A stretch of DNA of 64,000 nucleotides from Azospira sp. I13 (lineage in GTDB: Bacteria > Pseudomonadota > Gammaproteobacteria > Burkholderiales > Rhodocyclaceae), in the NCBI RefSeq assembly GCF_003112695.1, contig NZ_BFBP01000002.1:35473-99472 (forward strand), written 5' to 3'. How positions within the stretch are numbered: the stretch's first letter is position 1; each line of letters starts with the position of its first letter. Positions 38,183 through 54,118 of the stretch are shown here, piece after piece. The notes under the pieces were generated by a model. The model made no database searches, was not told the DNA's origin, and was given only the letters and a program-made list of their open reading frames with translations. The position numbers and the translations under genes were made by a program.

Positions 38183-39049
38183 TTAGAAGCCGAGGCTGTC
38201 CAGCAGGTCATCGACCTGCTGCTGATTCACCACCACATCGGTGCGGCCTTCACTGCTGATGACCGGGCCATTGAGGAGGCTGTTGACGTTGTCGTTGCGG
38301 CGGGCATCGGGAATGACATCCACCAGAACCTGAACCAATTGGTTTTCCAGATCCTGCGCCAGAGTAACGACTTTCTTAATGACCTGCCCGGTCAGGTCCT
38401 GGAAATCCTGGGCCATCATGATTTCGAGCAACTGGTCATTGGTGGCGACGGACTTCTGGGGCACCGTATCCTTCAGGAAAGCCCGCGTCTCCCCGGCCAA
38501 CACCTTGAAATCTGCCACGGACATCTGGTTGGCATAGAGCCGATCCCAGCGTTCGCCCAGGGCACGGGAACTGGTTTCAAGCTCATCCTGCAGCGGCTTG
38601 GCGATATCGGTGGCATTGAGCACCCGGCAAGCCGCCTGCTCGGTCAGGTTGGCCACATAGGCCAGACGATCCGTCGCATCAGGAATGGCATGAACCGTCT
38701 TTTCTAACAGCTTGTCGTAGCCCAGCTGGTGCAGGGTATCGTGGAGCTGTCGGGCCATATGGCCGATCCGCTTGAAAACACGCTCTTGCTCGGTAGCACC
38801 ATCTTCCTCGACCTCCAGCACCTCCACGGCACTCGCCTGAGGAGATGGGGCAGCGGCGGCAGTAGACGCAACACTGTCGAAGAGGGCCTGCAAATCATCG
38901 CTGTCTCCGGTGACGGAGGCCGCTGGAGCCGACTCAGCTACCGGCGTGGATGCCGGGGCAGGAGCGGCGGGAGCCGTCTGGCTAGAGGCAATGCTGTCAA
39001 ATAGGGCCTCCAGGTCGGCATTGTCGCCGGTCAGATTGGCATCGCTCAT
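38183..39049 (-). CDS. cheZ: CheY-P phosphatase CheZ with duplicated N-terminal motif
   Basis: CheZ dephosphorylates CheY-P. The core is a long four-helix bundle with the catalytic region MMAQDFQDLTGQVIKKV (Asp and Gln for hydrolysis). The C-terminal CheY-binding helix is VDDLLDSLGF. The 288 residues are longer than the roughly 214 of E. coli CheZ. The N-terminal extension of about 90 residues holds two 16-residue repeats, TGDNADLEALFDSIAS (7-22) and TGDSDDLQALFDSVAS (47-62), separated by Ala/Pro-rich sequence. They resemble both the CheZ tail and the FliM N-peptide, so they may bind CheY. It lies 3 nt after cheY. Confidence 0.94.
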   Translation of the reverse strand: MSDANLTGDNADLEALFDSIASSQTAPAAPAPASTPVAESAPAASVTGDSDDLQALFDSVASTAAAAPSPQASAVEVLEVEEDGATEQERVFKRIGHMARQLHDTLHQLGYDKLLEKTVHAIPDATDRLAYVANLTEQAACRVLNATDIAKPLQDELETSSRALGERWDRLYANQMSVADFKVLAGETRAFLKDTVPQKSVATNDQLLEIMMAQDFQDLTGQVIKKVVTLAQDLENQLVQVLVDVIPDARRNDNVNSLLNGPVISSEGRTDVVVNQQQVDDLLDSLGF

Positions 39050-39052
39050 GGC

Positions 39053-39442
39053 TCAGCCCCCCATCTTCTCGAAAATCTTCTGGAGCTTTTCGGCCAGGAC
39101 AGCGGCGGTAAACGGCTTGACGATATAGCCGCTGGCGCCCGCCTGGGCTGCGGCAATGATGTTTTCCTTTTTTGCTTCTGCGGTAATCATCAGGACCGGC
39201 AAATGCTTGAGATTCGGGGTGGCACGGATAGTCTGCAGCAGAGTCAGGCCATCCATGTTAGGCATGTTCCAGTCGGACACCACGAAGTCGAAGCCGCCCC
39301 CTTGCAGCTTCTGCAGGGCGATGGCACCGTCTTCGGCCTCGTCCACGTTGGTAAACCCCAGTTCCTTGAGCAGGTTGCGGACGATGCGCCGCATGGTGGA
39401 GAAATCGTCCACCACCAGGAATTTCATTTTGGGATCAGGCAT
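39053..39442 (-). CDS. cheY: Chemotaxis response regulator CheY (cluster 1)
   Basis: CheY-P binds FliM and reverses the motor. The 129-residue single receiver domain has the acidic pair (VVDD), phosphoacceptor Asp in [12 protein letters not shown], Thr in LMITAEA and Lys in GYIVKPFT. The WNMP context is the classical CheY form that pairs with CheZ. It lies 18 nt after cheV and 3 nt before cheZ. Confidence 0.96.
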
Positions 39443-44890: not shown

Positions 44891-45538
44891 TCAGGTAAAG
44901 AGCTCGATATCGCCTTCCACCTTCGCTTGTCCCAGACGGGACTGGTATTCCTTTTCGCGGGTGAACAGGGTGTCGTTATGGACCCGGTGGAGCTTCTTCA
45001 CCAGGACCTTGCCGGTATGGGGAAAGTAGTAAACCTTGCGGGGATAGGAATCGAGCAGGTCCTTGGCCACCACGGGAATCTTTTCCGTCTTCAGAAAATT
45101 GAGGACGAATTCGGCATTGCGCGCGCCCACCTGGGTGGAAGAAAGACTGGCCAGGACTGCGCCGCCGCCAAAAACCTTGGCCTCCAGACGGCCACGGCGG
45201 GCACCGAGCTTGAGCAGGTGGTTGATCAGCACTTCCATGGCGTAGGTACCGTAGCGCGCGGAACTGCTGATCATCCCGTCCCCCCCCATGTCCGGCAGCA
45301 TGAAATGGTTCATACCGCCGATACCGGAGTCCCCGTCCCGGATGCAGGCGGCAACGCAGGAGCCGAGCACGGTGACGAGCAGCATGTCTTCCCGGGAGAC
45401 GTAATATTCCCCGGGCAGTATCTTGGCCGCCGCCCGCTCGAAATTGCGGTCGAAATAGCGGTTGACCGCCAGATGCTCGACGTAGTCGGCACCATCAGCC
45501 GCCGCAGCCAGACTATCCCGGTTTTCTCGCCAGTTCAT
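44891..45538 (-). CDS. cheD: Chemoreceptor deamidase CheD
   Basis: CheD deamidates receptor glutamines. The 215-residue product from the ATG at 45538 keeps the catalytic Cys ([12 protein letters not shown]) and His ([10 protein letters not shown]). The start overlaps the cheR end by 26 nt. The C-terminus is EGDIELFT, nearly identical to the TGEIELF tail of the receptor at 52898-54118. This shared tail is probably a short docking motif. Confidence 0.94.
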
Positions 45539-46391
45539 AGACGGTCTTCCCGAGGGAGCGGAACAGGTCGGCTGCGTGCAGGAAACTTTCCGAATGGCCG
45601 GCAAACATCAAGCCCTCCGGATGCAGCATGGGTGCAAATCGGGAAAGAATCTTGTACTGGGTCGGCTTATCGAAATAGATCATCACGTTACGGCAGAAGA
45701 TCACATCCACCGGCCCCCGCACCGGCCAGGTGGGGTCGAGCAGATTGACCCGCTGGAAGGTAATCATCCGGCGCAGCTCGGGCCGCACGCAGACGTAACC
45801 CTCCTGGGAACCAGTGCCCCGCAGGAAGAAGCGCTTGACCTGATCCGGCGCCATCTTTTCCACCCGATCCAGGCCGTAGACACCCTTGTCAGCCGTGGAC
45901 AACACGTTGGTGTCCAGATCCGAGGCGATGATGGAAACATTGCTGGCGGCATTACCCAGGGCTTCCTGCACCGTGATGGCGATGGAGTAAGGCTCCTCGC
46001 CGGTGGAAGCGGCACAACACCAGATTTTCAGGGGGCGCTTGGCCGCGTGCTTCTTCAGGAAATCCGCCAGGATGGGGAAATGATGAGGCTCCCGGAAAAA
46101 GGAGGTGAGATTGGTGGTCAGGGAATTGACGAAGCGTTCCCACTCCTGGGCATCCCGGTTTTTTTCCAGCCGGTCCAAGTACTCACTGAAGGTCTTGATG
46201 CCGGTAGCCCGTAGGCGCCGGGCCAGGCGGGAATAGACCATATCCTGCTTGACCGGGGAGAGGGAGATGCCGGCATGCTGGTAAATGAGCTTGCGCACCC
46301 GCTCGAAATCGGCGCTGGTGAAGGTGAACTCCCGCATCGTCGGCGAGGCGACGGCGGGAGACTTGAACAGGGAGGACTTGAGTTCGGTCAT
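45513..46391 (-). CDS. cheR: Chemoreceptor methyltransferase CheR
   Basis: CheR methylates receptor glutamates using S-adenosylmethionine. The 292-residue protein has an N-terminal helical domain and the methyltransferase domain with SAM-binding CAASTGEEPYSIAI. Further motifs are IIASDLDTNVL and CRNVMIYFDKPTQ. The pentapeptide-binding beta subdomain is present, matching the EWEEF end of the upstream MCP. It is 73 nt after that MCP. Confidence 0.96.
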   Translation of the reverse strand: MTELKSSLFKSPAVASPTMREFTFTSADFERVRKLIYQHAGISLSPVKQDMVYSRLARRLRATGIKTFSEYLDRLEKNRDAQEWERFVNSLTTNLTSFFREPHHFPILADFLKKHAAKRPLKIWCCAASTGEEPYSIAITVQEALGNAASNVSIIASDLDTNVLSTADKGVYGLDRVEKMAPDQVKRFFLRGTGSQEGYVCVRPELRRMITFQRVNLLDPTWPVRGPVDVIFCRNVMIYFDKPTQYKILSRFAPMLHPEGLMFAGHSESFLHAADLFRSLGKTVYELARKPG

Positions 46392-46464: not shown

Positions 46465-49317
46465 TTAGAACTCTTCCCACTCGTCATCCAGGGAAGCCGG
46501 CAGTTTGGTCGCCGGCTTGCCGCCGAAACGGGGAGTGGGAACCCGGACTTCTTCCTGAACATGGGGCAGTGCCTGGGGGGCGGCAACGGTACGGAAATGA
46601 CCGCCACCCTCGTCACCAAGACGGAAAACGGATACCGCCTCCTTGAGGCCCCGGGCCTGTTCTTCCAGGCTTTCGGCTGCGGCAGCGGCCTCTTCCACCA
46701 GGGCGGCGTTCTGCTGGGTGACCTCGTCCATCTGGCTCACGGCCAGGCCCACCTGTTCGATACCGGCAGACTGTTCGCGGCTGGCCTCGGCGATGTCGGC
46801 CATGATCTTGGCCACCCGCTTGATGGAGGTCACCACTTCTTCCATGGTGCGGCCGGCGGAATCCACCAGCTTGGAGCCGTTCTCCACCTTCTCCACGGAG
46901 TCGGAGATGAGGGCCTTGATTTCCTTGGCGGCCGCAGCACTGCGTTGGGCCAGGTTGCGCACTTCGGTGGCCACCACGGCAAAACCGCGGCCCTGTTCAC
47001 CGGCCCGGGCGGCTTCCACAGCGGCATTGAGGGCCAGGATATTGGTCTGGAAGGCGATGCCGTCAATGACACCAATGATGTCGGCAATCTTGCTGGAGGA
47101 GTGATGGATGGCACCCATGGTCTGCACCACCTGCTCCACCACTTCACCGCCCTTAACGGCCACCTGCTGGGCGCCGCTGGCCAGCTCGTTGGCGGTACGG
47201 GCGTTGTCGGCGTTCTGCTTCACGGTGCTGGTCAACTGCTCCATGGAGGAAGCGGTTTCCTCCAGGCTGGAAGCCTGCTCTTCGGTGCGGGAGGAGAGGT
47301 CCGTGTTGCCGGAGGCGATTTCCTGGGAAGCCGTACTGATGGCGTCCGTGGCGCCCTTGATGCGTTCAACGATCTCCTTCAGCTGTTCAGCGGTGCTGTT
47401 GGCATCATTCTTCAACTGGCCGAAGGTACCGGCATAGTCGGCTTCGATACGGGAGGTCAGGTCGCCCTGGGACATCGCATTGAGCATGCGGGCCACGTCG
47501 TCCAGCCCGTGCTGGCTGGTTTCCAGCAAACGGTTGATGCCTTCGGAAAGCTGGCGGAAGAAACCGTCCTTGCCTTCTATCACCAGCCGGCGGGTGAAGT
47601 CGCCATTGGCGGCGCCATTGACGATGTCCGCCACTTCGGCCTCCACCGCCACCTCGGCGGTACGATCCAGCCACTCCACGGCAGAACCCAGGCGGATACC
47701 CCGCTCGTTCACCACCGGGGTCACGGTGAGGGAGAAGGTACGCCCCCCCAGGTGCACCGTCGCCCGGTGGGTACCGGTCAAGCGGGACAGCATGTTCCGC
47801 TGGTGGGCCGGATTCTTGTGGAAGACGTCGATATTGGCACCCAGCAACTGGTCGGCCCGGAAGTCGGGCAGGTCACGGCGGATATCGTCTTCCACCCGGC
47901 GGAACATATCCTGTACCGCCTTGTTCAGGTAGATGATGTTGAGCTGGTCGTCCGCCACCATGACATTAGTGGCCACGTTGTCGAGACCGATCTTGATGCG
48001 CAGGTTTTCATTGGCAACACGCTGGGCCTCGGCCACATCGAAGCCCAGCTTGATCTGCATGGACTGGATGCCTTGCAGCAGGCGCCCCATCTCGTCGTCA
48101 CGGGTGATATCCACCTGATGGTCGTAACGCCCCTGGCTGACGGCGTTAAAGGCGCTCTGGGCATCGGCCAGGGAGCGCAGAATGCCGCCTACCAGCTTCC
48201 AGGCGATAACCAGCAGCAGGACGATGACGAGAACGATGGCGCCAATGATGGTGGCAGTCGTCGAGTTCTTCAGTTCGTCGGCGGCCTGGGCATCCTTGCG
48301 GGCGGCGTCGGCGTGGAACTGGTACAGGGCGTCGGTCTTGGCTGAAACCTCGTCGTAAAGCGGGTTGATCTTTTCCGTGAGGATGCGCTGAGCCTCGGAA
48401 AAATTGCCGTCCACCAGGGCCTGGCGGGCCGGATTGATGCCTTCATCCACGTAGCGCTTGCGGGCACTGAAATAAGCATCGGAGAGACGGATGTGGTCAT
48501 CACCCCGGATGCCGGCCTGATAACGCTGCCAGATGGCGGTCAGTTCTTCCCGGTTCTTCGCGATGATGTCCGTGTGCACGGTGACCGGGTGCTCGTGGGT
48601 GGCGGCATGGGCCGTACCGGGTTCGTGCTGCAGGCCAAGGAGAATCTGGGCCCGGTTATCCGCTACCAGCTTCCCGATACGAGCCAGGCCCTGAACGGGC
48701 TGCAGCCGCTCAGTGAAAGCCTGCTCCAGGCTCTGGTTGGTGGTTTCCAGGGCCCGCAGGCCCAGCACACCGACCACCACGGCAAACAGCACGGCCAGGC
48801 CGAAGCCCAGGCCCAGGCGGGTAGCCAGGGATTGATTGGCGAAACGGGCGCCCAGGCTGGGGCCGCCGCGCACGACCTTGCCGCAGAGGATGCGCAGGCT
48901 GCCGGCGCGGTTCTCGCGGAACAGGCGATACGCCGATTCGGCGGCCTCCACCTGCTCCCGGGTAGGCTTGCGGCGCACCGACATGTAGCCGACCACGGTA
49001 TCGCCTTCCCGGATAGGGGTGGCGTTGGCCTCGACCCAATAATGGTCACCATTCTTGCAGCGGTTCTTGACCAGGCCGGTCCATGGCCGCCCGGCCTTGA
49101 GGTGGGACCACATGTCGCTGTAGGCCTGGGGCGGCATGTCCGGATGGCGAACGATGTTATGGGGCTCACCGATCAACTCCGCTTCGGAGAAGCCGCTGAT
49201 CTCGATGAAGTCCCGGTTGATGTAGGTGATCTGGCCCTTGAGATCGGTCTTGGAGACGATCAGGGTGTCGTCCCGCAGGGGCACTTCCACGTTGGTGACC
49301 GGCAGATTGGTGCGCAT
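46465..49317 (-). CDS. Methyl-accepting chemotaxis protein with two PAS domains and CheR tether
   Basis: This 950-residue receptor has an unusual order: an N-terminal cytoplasmic PAS domain (about 18-118) and a membrane helix (168-189). A helical periplasmic domain and a second membrane helix (355-375) follow, then HAMP, a second PAS (about 445-555), further HAMP-like helices and the MA signalling domain. The hairpin tip is [20 protein letters not shown]. The C-terminus DEWEEF is a CheR/CheB-binding pentapeptide of the NWETF type. The Aer-like first PAS ([18 protein letters not shown]) suggests energy or redox sensing, but no ligand can be read. It lies between cheW and cheR. Confidence 0.93.
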
Positions 49318-49935: not shown

Positions 49936-52452
49936 TCAGACCGGCTCGTCGGCCACCTGGCCCTTGGCCATGGAAACCAGGGCCGAAGTATCCAGGATCA
50001 GGGCGACCCGTCCGTCCCCCATGATGGTGGCGCCGGAAACGCCGCGCACCTTGCGGTAATTCTGTTCCAGACTCTTGATCACCACCTGGTGCTGGCCCAC
50101 CAGGGCATCGACAAACAGGGCGGCCTTGGCCCCGTCGGAGTTGAGCACCACCATGATGCCTTCGTGGAACTCACGAACCTTCGGCTCTGCGTCAAAAACC
50201 TCATGCAGCACCACCACCGGGAGGTATTCACCCCGCACCTGGATGACCCGCCCCTGGTGGGAAACGGTCTTGATGTCGCTGGGTTTGGGCTGCAGGGATT
50301 CCACCACATAAGAAAGGGGAATGATGTAAATCTCTTCCCCCACCGAAACGCTCATGCCATCGAGAATGGCCAGGGTCAGGGGCAGCCGCACGGTCATGCG
50401 GGTGCCGATGCCGGTCATGGATTCGATTTCGATGCGGCCACCCAGGGCCTGGATGTTGCGGCGGACCACGTCCATGCCGACGCCACGGCCGGAAACGTCC
50501 GTCACCTGGTCGGCGGTGGAAAAGCCGGGCTCGAAGATCAGCGCCCAGACATCCTGGTCGCTCATCTGGTCAGAGGCGGCCAAGCCGCGCTCCCGCGCCT
50601 TGGAGAGGATTTTCTGTCGATTCAGGCCCGCGCCGTCATCCCCCACTTCAATGACGATGTTGCCGCCCTGGTGGGCGGCCTTGAGGGTGATGGTGCCACC
50701 CGGCGGCTTGCCCGCAGCGATGCGCTTCTCCGGCGATTCGATGCCGTGGTCCAGGCTGTTACGGATGAGGTGGGTCAGGGGGTCGGTGATCTTTTCGATC
50801 AGCCCCTTGTCCAGCTCCGTGGTTTCGCCGCTCATTTTCAGCTCCACCTGCTTTCCCAGCTTGCCGGAAAGGTCCCGGACCACCCGGGGGAAGCGGGAGA
50901 AGACGAAGGAAATGGGCAACATGCGGATGGACATGACCGCTTCCTGCAGGTCACGGCTGTTGCGTTCCAGCTGGGTCAGGCCGTTGAGCAGGCGCTCCGG
51001 TGCCGCTTCCTGCATCTGCTGGGCAGTCGCCAGCAGCATGGCCTGGGTGATGACCAGTTCGCCCACCAGGTTGATGAGTTGGTCCACTTTCTCCACACCG
51101 ACCCGGATCGAGCTATCCCCGGCGGCCACCGCTGCCGGCTTGGCCTTGGGCTCACTGCGCCGCTCGGCGGCGGGGGCAACGGCAGGAGGCGATGCTTCAT
51201 TGACGGGTGCCGGAGCAAGCGCAGGAGCGGAGACCGGGATGGCGGCCAGGGAGACGGGGGCGGCATCGGCAGGGGCTGCGACAACGTCGGGCAGGGGCGC
51301 AAAGAAGCCATAACCATCGCCCTCCTCGGCAACCATCGGCGTTTCGGGGGAGCTGACCGGCGCTGCCTCGGCGACATCGGCGGCATCCGCAGCCAGAGGC
51401 AATGGTACGAAGAAACCGTATCCCTCCCCTTCTTCCCCTACCTCCCGAGCAACGACGGGAGCGGGAGCGACATCGGACAAGGGGGCGAAGAATCCATAGC
51501 CGTCACCTTCCTCGGCGATATCCGCAGATGGGGCAGATACTGCCTCGCCTGCAGCCGTGGTACCGGGCAGTGGTTCAAAAAAGCCATAGCCCTCCCCTTC
51601 TTCTGCCACGGCAGCCGCAGGGGGAACTTCCGGCAAATCTTCGAAGAAACCGTAGCCCCGCACATCGTCGGGGGTGCCCGGCGCATCATCAAACAGGCCA
51701 AAAGCCTCATTACCGGCAGCTGCTGCAACGGGGCTGTCGCTGATGCGGCAGGCGTCGCTATCGGCGATGAAATCCAGGGAATCCACCAGAGCCTGGCGCT
51801 CCACCGTGCCGCTTAGGCGCAGGTGCCACAGGCCGGGCTGACCGGCAACGGGGCGGGCCAGGATTTCAAGTGCCCCCAGGCGGCCCAGATCTTCCAGACA
51901 GTTTTCCAGGGTTTCGGGCGCGGCCAGGGCGGCGTCCGTGGGCAGGAATTCAATATCCCAGCAATGGCTACCGGGCTCGGCAGGCACTCCGACCGGGGTC
52001 GATGCCGCCGCTACAGTAGTCGCCGAAGCCGTTGGCAATGCTGCCGGCGATGCGGCACCGCTGTCATCCTGAGTCAACTGCCGCAGGCGCTGGCAAACGG
52101 CCTCGGAAGCTTCCGGGGCCACTGGCTCGCCTCCCTGATGGGCTGCCAGGAGGGACTTCAGCAGGTCTCCCGCCTCAAGGAAGGCATCCACCATTTCAGC
52201 CTGCAGGGGAATCTCATGCTTGCGCAGGCGGTCCAGTAGGGTTTCCAGGACGTGGGTGACTTCCGTCAGGTCGGTAAAACCAAAGGTACCGGAAGACCCC
52301 TTGATGGAGTGGGCCGCCCGGAAAATGGCATTGAGGTCTTCATCCTCCGGGGCAGCCACATCCAGCGCGAGCAGCAGGGATTCCATTTCTGCCAGGTGTT
52401 CCGCCGATTCCTCGAAGAACACCTGGTAGAACTGGCTCATGTCGATTGCCAT
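49936..52452 (-). CDS. cheA: Chemotaxis histidine kinase CheA (cluster 2) with GYGFF linker repeats
   Basis: The 838-residue kinase has an HPt domain (phospho-His48 in [13 protein letters not shown]), a P2-like CheY-binding domain (about 164-240), a repeat-rich linker (250-390), then dimerisation, ATP-binding ([23 protein letters not shown]) and CheW-like domains. The linker has five copies of an acidic EEGxGYGFFxPLP-type unit, with GYGFF at 266, 288, 318, 344 and 380, plus a degenerate first copy (AFGLFDD). Such periodic aromatic/acidic units may be docking sites. It lies between cheY and cheW and is about 200 residues longer than the cluster-1 CheA. Confidence 0.96.
51283..51705 (-). repeat. 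Coding repeats (GYGFF units) in the cheA linker
   Basis: Five imperfect repeats encode EEG[ED]GYGFFxPL[PS]-type units spaced 22-36 codons apart, after one degenerate copy. Identity is mainly at the protein level; codons differ (for example both TAT and TAC for Tyr), so they are not recent DNA duplications. Confidence 0.85.
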
Positions 52453-52501: not shown

Positions 52502-52867
52502 TCAGCCGATCACCTTTTTCACGACTTCCACGAGTTTCTGCGGGTCAAAGGGCTTGACCAGCCAGCCAGTGGCCCCGGCGGCGCGGCCCTGGGACTTCAT
52601 GGCATCAGAAGATTCAGTGGTGAGCATGAGAATGGGAGTGGTGCGATACTGGGGCAGGGCACGCAGGGAACGGATCAGGGTCAGGCCATCCATGCGGGGC
52701 ATGTTCTGGTCGGTGAGGATCAGATTGACGCTGCGGCTCTTGGCCTTTTCCAGGCCATCCATGCCATCCACGGCTTCAATGACTTCATAGCCGGCGCTTT
52801 TCAGGGTAAAGCTCACCATCTGACGGATGGAAGCGGAGTCATCAACAGCAAGTACGGTTTTGGGCAT
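52502..52867 (-). CDS. cheY: Chemotaxis response regulator CheY (cluster 2)
   Basis: The 121-residue single receiver domain has VDDSASIRQMV at the N-terminus and the phosphoacceptor Asp in LTDQNMPRMDGL. The Thr and Lys switch residues are in LMLTTES and GWLVKPFD. It differs from the cluster-1 CheY (LTDQNMP against VSDWNMP) and resembles CheY forms paired with adaptation clusters. It is 49 nt before cheA. Confidence 0.95.
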   Translation of the reverse strand: MPKTVLAVDDSASIRQMVSFTLKSAGYEVIEAVDGMDGLEKAKSRSVNLILTDQNMPRMDGLTLIRSLRALPQYRTTPILMLTTESSDAMKSQGRAAGATGWLVKPFDPQKLVEVVKKVIG

Positions 52868-52897: not shown

Positions 52898-54118
52898 TCA
52901 GAAGAGTTCGATTTCGCCGGTATTGAAGCTTTCCTGGCTTACCGGGTTGTTTTGGGTGCGCTGCTTGAGCCCATCCAGGCGTTCGCGGGCCTGGAACAGC
53001 AGTTGTTGCAGCTGCTGGGCCTGGCCCGGGGAAAGGCCATCGGCACCATCCCGGGCCACGGCGGCGACAGCCCCCATGTCCTCGAAGACGGATTGCAGGG
53101 CTTCGATGCGTAAGCTCACGTGTGCCAGCAGCTGGGTCACCATATCCTGGAACTGCAGGGAAACCACCGCCTGGCTGACGCTCTGCTCCATGCGCTCGGA
53201 AATGTGGTTGAGTTCATCAATGGTCAGGCTGGTCTGCTGGTTCAGTGCTTCGATGTTGCCCATGGCCACCTCGACGCTCTGCTTGGACTTCAGGGCGAAG
53301 GTCATGTCCTGGGCCGCCATCTTGTTGATGGCAGCCTCGGTGGCTTCGATGGATTGCTGCATGGTCCCCAGTTGACCGCGAATCTGCTGGCTGAAATGGC
53401 TGGTGCGCCCGGACAGGTCACGCACTTCGTCGGCCACCACGGCAAAGCCGCGCCCTGCCTCACCGGCCCGGGCCGCCTCAATGGCGGCATTGAGCGCTAG
53501 GAGATTGGTCTGCTTGGAGATGCCTTCGATTTCGCCGAGCATGCCGGTGATGCGCTTCATCTGCTCCGACATCTTGTCGGTCATTTCCACCAGCTCCATG
53601 GCCAGCTTGGAATTGGCCACCACGCTGTCCACGAAGGCATGGAGGGTTTCGGAAGTCTGATGGGCAAAGGCCGCGAAATCCGTGGCACCGGAATCACTGG
53701 ATTGGTTACTGATGATGCCCGTGCCGAGTTCCTGCTGGCGCTTGGCCTGCAAGCTCATTTCGGTAAAGCTCTGGATCAGGGTGCCGATGGCATCGGAGAA
53801 AATCTGCTGAGTCCGCACCACATCCGCCCGGGTCTGCTCGAACTGGATGCGGAATTCCTCGTTGGCCTGCAGCACCATGCTGCCAGTATCGGCCAGCAGG
53901 CGTCCGCCCTCCCCTTCCAGCGAGGTCTGGCGAAAGGCGCCATCGGTGGCAGCCGGTGCCTTGATGAGCAAGGAGAGAACAATCCAGCCGGCGGCAATCA
54001 GCGCCACACCGACGGAAAACACCGTGCCTCGCAAGCTCCCGTCAATGGCCGCCATGCAGGCAGCAACAAGCAGCACCCAGACTAATCCGAAGCCGCCCAG
54101 TTTGGCCCATCCGTTCAT
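52898..54118 (-). CDS. Minimal membrane-bound methyl-accepting chemotaxis-like protein
   Basis: The 406-residue product has two adjacent N-terminal membrane helices (about 9-25 and 34-52) with hardly any periplasmic loop, so it lacks a conventional external sensor domain. The rest is coiled coil with a receptor tip ([20 protein letters not shown]) and shortened flanks. It ends TGEIELF, the same tail as CheD. It lies between motB and cheY in the motA-cheB unit. Signals may arise from the membrane or through partner proteins. A role in transducing stator or membrane state is inference from position only. Confidence 0.88.

Follow-up and report, generated by a model that had tools for sequence, protein, structure and literature searches.

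GYGFF repeats in a disordered CheA linker as probable docking sites for the response regulator CheY1

Described docking elements of CheA and CheY

In E. coli CheA, the P2 domain (1eay, 1a0o and 1fwp) lies between P1 and P3 and holds CheY near the phosphodonor. The repeats analysed here have a similar position, but P2 is a folded domain, whereas the repeats are five-residue peptides present in 1 to 7 copies in a disordered stretch; they stand beside P2 or without it, and they are tied to one CheY, CheY1. The target peptides of FliM and CheZ, that of CheZ being helical, bind the alpha4-beta5-alpha5 face of CheY. The repeats are likewise short, whereas they are predicted to form a strand and their carrier is the kinase. 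The pentapeptide xWxxF, found at the C-terminus of receptors and serving CheR/CheB, also has aromatics three residues apart in an acidic stretch. The LID of Vibrio CheA (ParP/ParC system) mediates docking without belonging to the catalytic core of the kinase, and the repeats would be comparable in this respect. However, the LID binds ParP for polar placement, whereas no obvious ParP was found among the ten CheW-domain places of the present genome, judged by size and place, and we know of no likeness between the LID and GYGFF-motif sequences.

The closest functional parallel may be CheS of Sinorhizobium meliloti, which according to a review (PMC8429497) accelerates signal decay by binding to CheA and to a sink CheY1. 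Unlike CheS, which is a protein of its own, the enhancer here would be built into CheA. A report on Comamonas testosteroni CNB-1 (PMC6391922) describes a CheY1, encoded next to cheA, that receives phosphate from CheA and loses it much faster than CheY2. The same report proposes this CheY1 as a phosphate sink, for that one species, and states that deletion of cheY1 reduced chemotaxis partly while deletion of cheY2 abolished it. Moreover, more than half of the CheAs in a large survey are reported to have no recognised CheY-docking domain (PMC10782961). A motif tracking one CheY paralogue would offer a concrete and easily tested answer to how such kinases choose their CheY.

The repeat-bearing linker and its spread

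The gene is the second cheA of the 64-kb stretch of DNA that was analysed (the window), at 49936..52452 on the minus strand. From its open reading frame and Pfam, the 838-residue product comprises P1, P2, the repeat-bearing linker and P3-P5, with Hpt (residues 7-102), H-kinase_dim (447-509), HATPase_c (557-693) and CheW (699-828), all over cut-off and in the right order for a CheA histidine kinase. The domain preceding the repeats (residues 163-239; 51736..51966, minus), called P2-like in an earlier note on this DNA, can now be named P2: it is modelled at high pLDDT with a beta-alpha-beta-beta-alpha-beta fold, and a profile of 16 such segments matches E. coli CheA P2 in the PDB (1eay, E=1e-6). 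It is followed by a linker of about 200 residues (244-446; 51115..51723, minus). In the AlphaFold model of CheA almost all of residues 244-449 fall below pLDDT 50, so the disorder assumed for the linker in that note holds, as a prediction.

The chemotaxis operon has the order motA-motB-(MCP-like soluble protein)-cheY1-cheA-cheW-mcp-cheR-cheD-cheB, with gene names taken in part from Pfam and otherwise from reading the translations. The cheY1 gene (52502..52867, minus), directly upstream of cheA, encodes a Response_reg protein of 121 residues with M at position 90 that co-occurs with the motif and is the proposed docking partner of the repeats. A receptor encoded at 46465-49317 (minus) ends in the pentapeptide EWEEF and contains PAS domains, a domain of TarH type and two HAMP regions.

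Between P2 and P3, the linker carries five GYGFF copies and one degenerate AFGLF. YGFF starts at residues 267, 289, 319, 345 and 381 and is preceded by G every time; the degenerate copy has FGLF at 251, within EAFGLF. Taken as twelve codons each, the degenerate copy lies at 51679..51714 and copies 1 to 5 at 51631..51666, 51565..51600, 51475..51510, 51397..51432 and 51289..51324, all on the minus strand. This confirms five copies plus a degenerate one, variably spaced between P2 and the dimerisation domain, and the range first given for them, 51283-51705, takes in all six repeat cores. Acidic residues mostly stand in front of the copies and x-P-L-P mostly behind; the unit originally written as EEGxGYGFFxPLP describes four of the five (one ending in PLS), while copy 1 deviates. 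The codons have diverged as claimed, the invariant G-Y-G-F-F being encoded by 3, 2, 3, 2 and 2 different codons across the five copies, which indicates that the peptide is kept and not the DNA. In 20,000 shuffles of this linker the motif occurred on average 0.010 times and at most once, against a real count of 6. A G[YF]GFF DNA pattern had 11 matches in the genome, five of them these repeats, and a reversed control pattern had 8. The repeats do not behave as a folded P2 domain, since the blocks that bear them have pLDDT 32-44 in the AlphaFold model of CheA alone.

The motif was then followed in 230 CheA loci including the window: 30 from 61 genomes searched, 80 from named contigs, and 120 stretches from matches in 250 genomes of the window's order, a sample that leaves out G243 (truncated), G279 and the second matches of G161 and G187. 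Of these loci 220 could be parsed (P1 or P3 was missing or not found in the other 10) and 208 remained distinct once identical cores were merged. A motif of the form acidic-x-[GAS]-[YF]-G-[FL]-F is present 1 to 7 times in 132 of the 208 distinct CheAs: 35 carry one copy, 13 two, 35 three, 29 four, 13 five, six carry six and one carries seven. The consensus of 327 copies in 161 distinct linkers is [ED]-[ED]-[DEG]-x-[GAS]-[YF]-G-[FL]-F-[EDATV]-[PD]-[LAIV]-P (17 of 188 loci unparsed in this count). A shuffle test on 161 linkers (27 of 188 loci unparsed) gave a mean of 0.97 motifs and a maximum of 4, against 348 observed. Judged from these sequences, conservation of the motif greatly exceeds what chance would give. 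Named carriers include Dechloromonas, Zoogloea, Herbaspirillum, Janthinobacterium, Massilia, Mitsuaria, Chromobacterium, Hydrogenophaga and Comamonas and, outside the window's order, Rheinheimera and Alteromonas; a Dechloromonas locus (L042) has five copies and a Comamonas relative (L068) one. The motif is absent from the CheAs examined of Burkholderia, Pandoraea, Variovorax, Enterobacterales, Xanthomonas, Halomonas, Vibrio and alphaproteobacteria. The earlier note had named poor conservation in close relatives as the outcome that would speak against it; the opposite was observed, and the wide retention of the motif across the order supports both the selection and the docking role proposed there. 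Among 1,211 other Che and flagellar open reading frames of the first 190 loci only three match the motif, two of which (L176 and L189) are CheA itself under another label and the third (L142) an MCP-like frame. A literature text search, with most subscription journals outside its scope, returned no report of a GYGFF-type CheA motif, and no such motif is reported among the matches listed for CheA linkers, CheY binding and linear motifs.

With its repeated aromatic FG units, which vary in number and spacing, the acidic, Ala/Pro-rich linker would also suit a sticker model, in which linkers cohere and concentrate arrays with no single partner. Such a model does not predict the 35 of 132 carriers with a single copy and leaves the link to CheY1 described below unexplained, and we regard it as highly improbable.

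Some individual loci deserve mention. Alteromonas marina (L091) has two tandem cheA-cheW-mcp-cheR-cheD-cheB clusters, and both CheAs bear the motif, in four and three copies. The second CheA of genome G209 (L205) has five EDMGLF and one EEVGLF, mostly in near-identical tandem; its paralogue L204 has FGFF and YGFF instead, the change being common to all copies of L205. In addition, the CheA linker of a member of Nevskiales (L059) has a different motif, SISEDEFEALLDELHG, twice, and no GYGFF.

Association of the motif with CheY1

For the comparisons that follow, the strict motif is [YFW]G[FLIM]F within the CheA linker, and the relaxed motif, [YFWM][GE][FLIMV]F, was widened only after the variants MGLF, YEFF and FELF had been seen in held-out loci. 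A CheY is called CheY1-type by its identity to the CheY1 of the window, with a cut at 62% set on the first locus set; outside the order, this definition partly measures kinship. An upstream CheY1 at 64-100% identity accompanies 129 of the 132 motif-bearing CheAs. Of the remaining three, L133 has its CheY1 (71%) about 4.4 kb upstream, and L126 and L145 are cut by contig ends. The first set, from the same order, had given 98 carriers with an upstream CheY1 at 64-90%, and three loci (L018, L126 and L145) that showed no CheY1, with short or truncated flanks; in that set the identities of CheW, CheR, CheD and CheB did not separate carriers from non-carriers.

The converse was observed in 152 loci of the window's order, which were assigned to it by kinship or, for 18 named loci, by name (L046 being named to phylum level only). 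In 21 of these the motif is missing in every form, and 20 of the 21 have either a CheY under 62% upstream or no CheY1 there; with the strict motif the figure is 20 of 24. The exception in the order is L131, which lacks the motif altogether and has a CheY1 at 72%; outside the order, L085 (CheY 67%) and L094 (63%) also lack it.

A rule fixed beforehand, with one clause on CheY1 identity and one on M or I at CheY1 position 90, was applied to held-out loci: 40 stretches minus three without P1 and two from genomes already seen (L237 and L239), leaving 35. The identity clause fitted 32 of the 35 (Fisher p = 1.6e-6, relatedness ignored). All 22 strict-motif carriers had CheY1, at 64-81%; among the 13 motif-less loci, ten had no CheY1 or a CheY at 43-55%, and three had CheY1 together with a variant motif. 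These three, L205, L221 and L226 (MGLF, YEFF and FELF), are the misses of the identity clause alone. With the position-90 clause, which failed once, at a V in L232, the misses are L205, L226 and L232. The motif thus co-evolves with one CheY, as a CheY-docking short linear motif would.

The presence of P2 was considered as a determinant of the motif and rejected, since the two vary independently. Within the order, all 20 loci without CheY1 retain P2 and lack the motif, while all 15 CheAs without a detected P2 have both motif and CheY1 (one in relaxed form). Outside the order, four of 11 P2-less CheAs have motif and CheY1 and seven have neither, so P2 loss need not bring the motif. By eye, three of the 19 motif-bearing CheAs scored as P2-less (L164, L187 and L205) look like diverged P2. 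Together these counts indicate that the motif follows CheY1 and does not require P2. Its presence in P2-less CheAs of the order would make it relevant to a large group of bacteria.

Relatedness was taken into account by comparing joint and independent models of evolution on a tree of CheA cores. Correlated evolution of motif and CheY1 was favoured over 150 tips (likelihood ratio, LR, 39.6 for the strict and 50.6 for the relaxed motif); parsimony places about 6 CheY1 changes and 7-9 motif changes behind this result, and Pagel-type tests can overstate few events. Over the 112 tips with full flanks, with the relaxed motif, CheY1 reached LR 43.7 (p = 7.5e-9), against 10.9 for the MCP-like soluble protein, 6.1 for CheY2, 5.8 for CheW, 3.1 for CheD, 2.9 for MCP, 1.0 for CheR and 0.8 for CheB. 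The CheY2 of the window is encoded at 39053-39442. On this comparative evidence, retention and loss of the motif parallel those of CheY1, and no other tested neighbour comes close.

Events within single genera are the clearest. In one genus, G245 and G216 retain motif and CheY1, while in G187 and G273 the motif is gone and CheY1 has no match genome-wide, and in G113 the best CheY1 match is only 52% and the motif is absent. In another, G173, G233 and G051 retain both, G098 and G140 have neither, and G205 has kept CheY1 and lost the motif, its locus being the L131 mentioned above and the sole such case of the order. Whole-genome searches at E 1e-25 found no CheY1 in the motif-less genomes G098, G140, G187, G273, G227 and G282.

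These results bear on three other explanations. The first is that motif and CheY1 both mark one operon type and that the true partner is another gene, for example the MCP-like soluble protein or CheD. The LR of the soluble protein (p = 0.028) is in its favour, and at one threshold the columns of CheD separate the groups about as often as those of CheY1. However, the LR of CheY1 is four times that of the soluble protein, and among 92 carriers with full flanks a nearby soluble protein is missing in 51 and CheD in 12, which makes this reading very unlikely. Docking onto a CheW-like domain (CheW, CheV, CheA P5 or a ParP-like protein), placing or stabilising arrays, has a precedent in the Vibrio LID, described as a CheA element binding the AIF domain of ParP (PMC5706961). 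It is in our view unlikely, since the LR of CheW corresponds to p = 0.21 and the ten CheW-domain places of the genome fit CheW, CheV, CheA and a pilus-type pair by size and position. Docking on CheA's own domains was also considered and rejected: in the AlphaFold model of CheA the linker has low confidence, so nothing there suggests that it docks on the P5 of the same protein. Of the targets first suggested, CheY is supported, and specifically the CheY1 next to cheA; CheW gains no support, and the data speak neither for nor against a condensate-like array. The third explanation is that the motif tethers an adaptation enzyme, CheR or CheB, in the manner of the receptor pentapeptide. Receptors here end in EWEEF-type tails and the aromatic spacing of Y-G-F-F matches xWxxF, but the motif is internal to CheA whereas the pentapeptide is C-terminal on receptors, the 22 receptors listed end in a pentapeptide with the CheA motif present or not, and on the tree the motif shows no co-evolution with either enzyme. 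The probability of such a tether is very low, and the motif was rejected as a CheR/CheB-binding pentapeptide on its position.

Structural model and proposed function

Docking by the repeats is well supported by the comparative data, and CheY1 is the probable partner that they would recruit. Within CheY1, the most distinctive residue is M90, present in 98 of 101 motif-linked proteins, while 22 of 34 other cheA-linked CheYs have K. Q54 and D88 also separate the groups, and columns 110, 111 and 115 are high as well. In six motif-less CheYs of the order, Q54 is found in five, D or E at 88 in five, and M90 in one, which leaves M90 as the single good separator in this group. Columns with a divergence of at least 0.6 make up 4.1% of CheY1, 2.5% of P1, 2.4% of CheD, 1.0% of CheR and 0 of the others; at 0.5, CheD (8.7%) is level with CheY1 (8.3%), so that the column evidence is weak on its own. 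F86 of CheW also separates the groups somewhat. By alignment to the L219 model, residues 88-90 belong to the helix that precedes beta5 and 110-115 to the one that follows it; in E. coli CheY, this is the side bound by FliM, CheZ and P2.

At L219, cheY1 and cheA are in one frame, and the read-through chain CheY1-P1-linker was folded by AlphaFold (pLDDT 86.6, pTM 0.79); joined chains are seven of the 30 rows in the tethered-model set. Residues 292-294 of the second FGFF (292-295) form a strand; their block has pLDDT 81, against 42-65 for the other linker blocks. Apart from this strand the model contains only the five of CheY1, one of which must therefore be its partner, and we infer that one copy of the motif becomes a strand pairing with the CheY1 sheet. 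The first FGFF remains disordered, as expected with one CheY1 in the chain, so that one of two copies docks in the model. In the window CheA modelled without CheY1, a different CheA from that of L219, the motif blocks stay at pLDDT 32-44.

We propose that CheY1 is a dedicated response regulator recruited by the repeats, which would act as short linear docking sites within the disordered linker of CheA. The motif would add as a short beta strand to the edge of the CheY1 sheet, most likely at beta5 between alpha4 and alpha5. P2 would serve general CheY clients, while the linker motifs would hold one or several CheY1 beside P1, with faster phosphotransfer to, and possibly back-transfer through, CheY1. 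The copy number would set the amount of CheY1 held per kinase. By analogy with Comamonas, CheY1 may act as a phosphate sink draining the signal, and a multivalent tuning of this sink is plausible; it may offer a natural example of signal decay adjusted through multivalency. More tentatively, and with less than even probability, the linker could be a CheY1 magazine: a CheA dimer would hold up to about ten CheY1 beside P1 as its own adjustable signal drain, able to replace P2 altogether, and evolution would tune the copy number and thereby how fast the signal ends.

Other short sequence elements were also observed. The MCP-like soluble protein (52898-54118, minus, upstream of cheY1) and CheD (44891-45604, minus) end in a common C-terminal tail, G[DE][IV]ELF. 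With one loose pattern, a tail of this type is found in 49 of 55 soluble-protein and 79 of 103 CheD open reading frames, and in none of 115 CheB, 121 CheR and 21 CheZ frames; it may be another docking tail, shared by two proteins of this operon. Finally, the CheZ of the window (38183-39049, minus) has two N-terminal copies of GDxxDLxALFDSxAS that resemble its own C-terminal VDDLLDSLGF, which we take to be the CheY-binding end of CheZ, and these copies are possibly extra CheY-binding helices.
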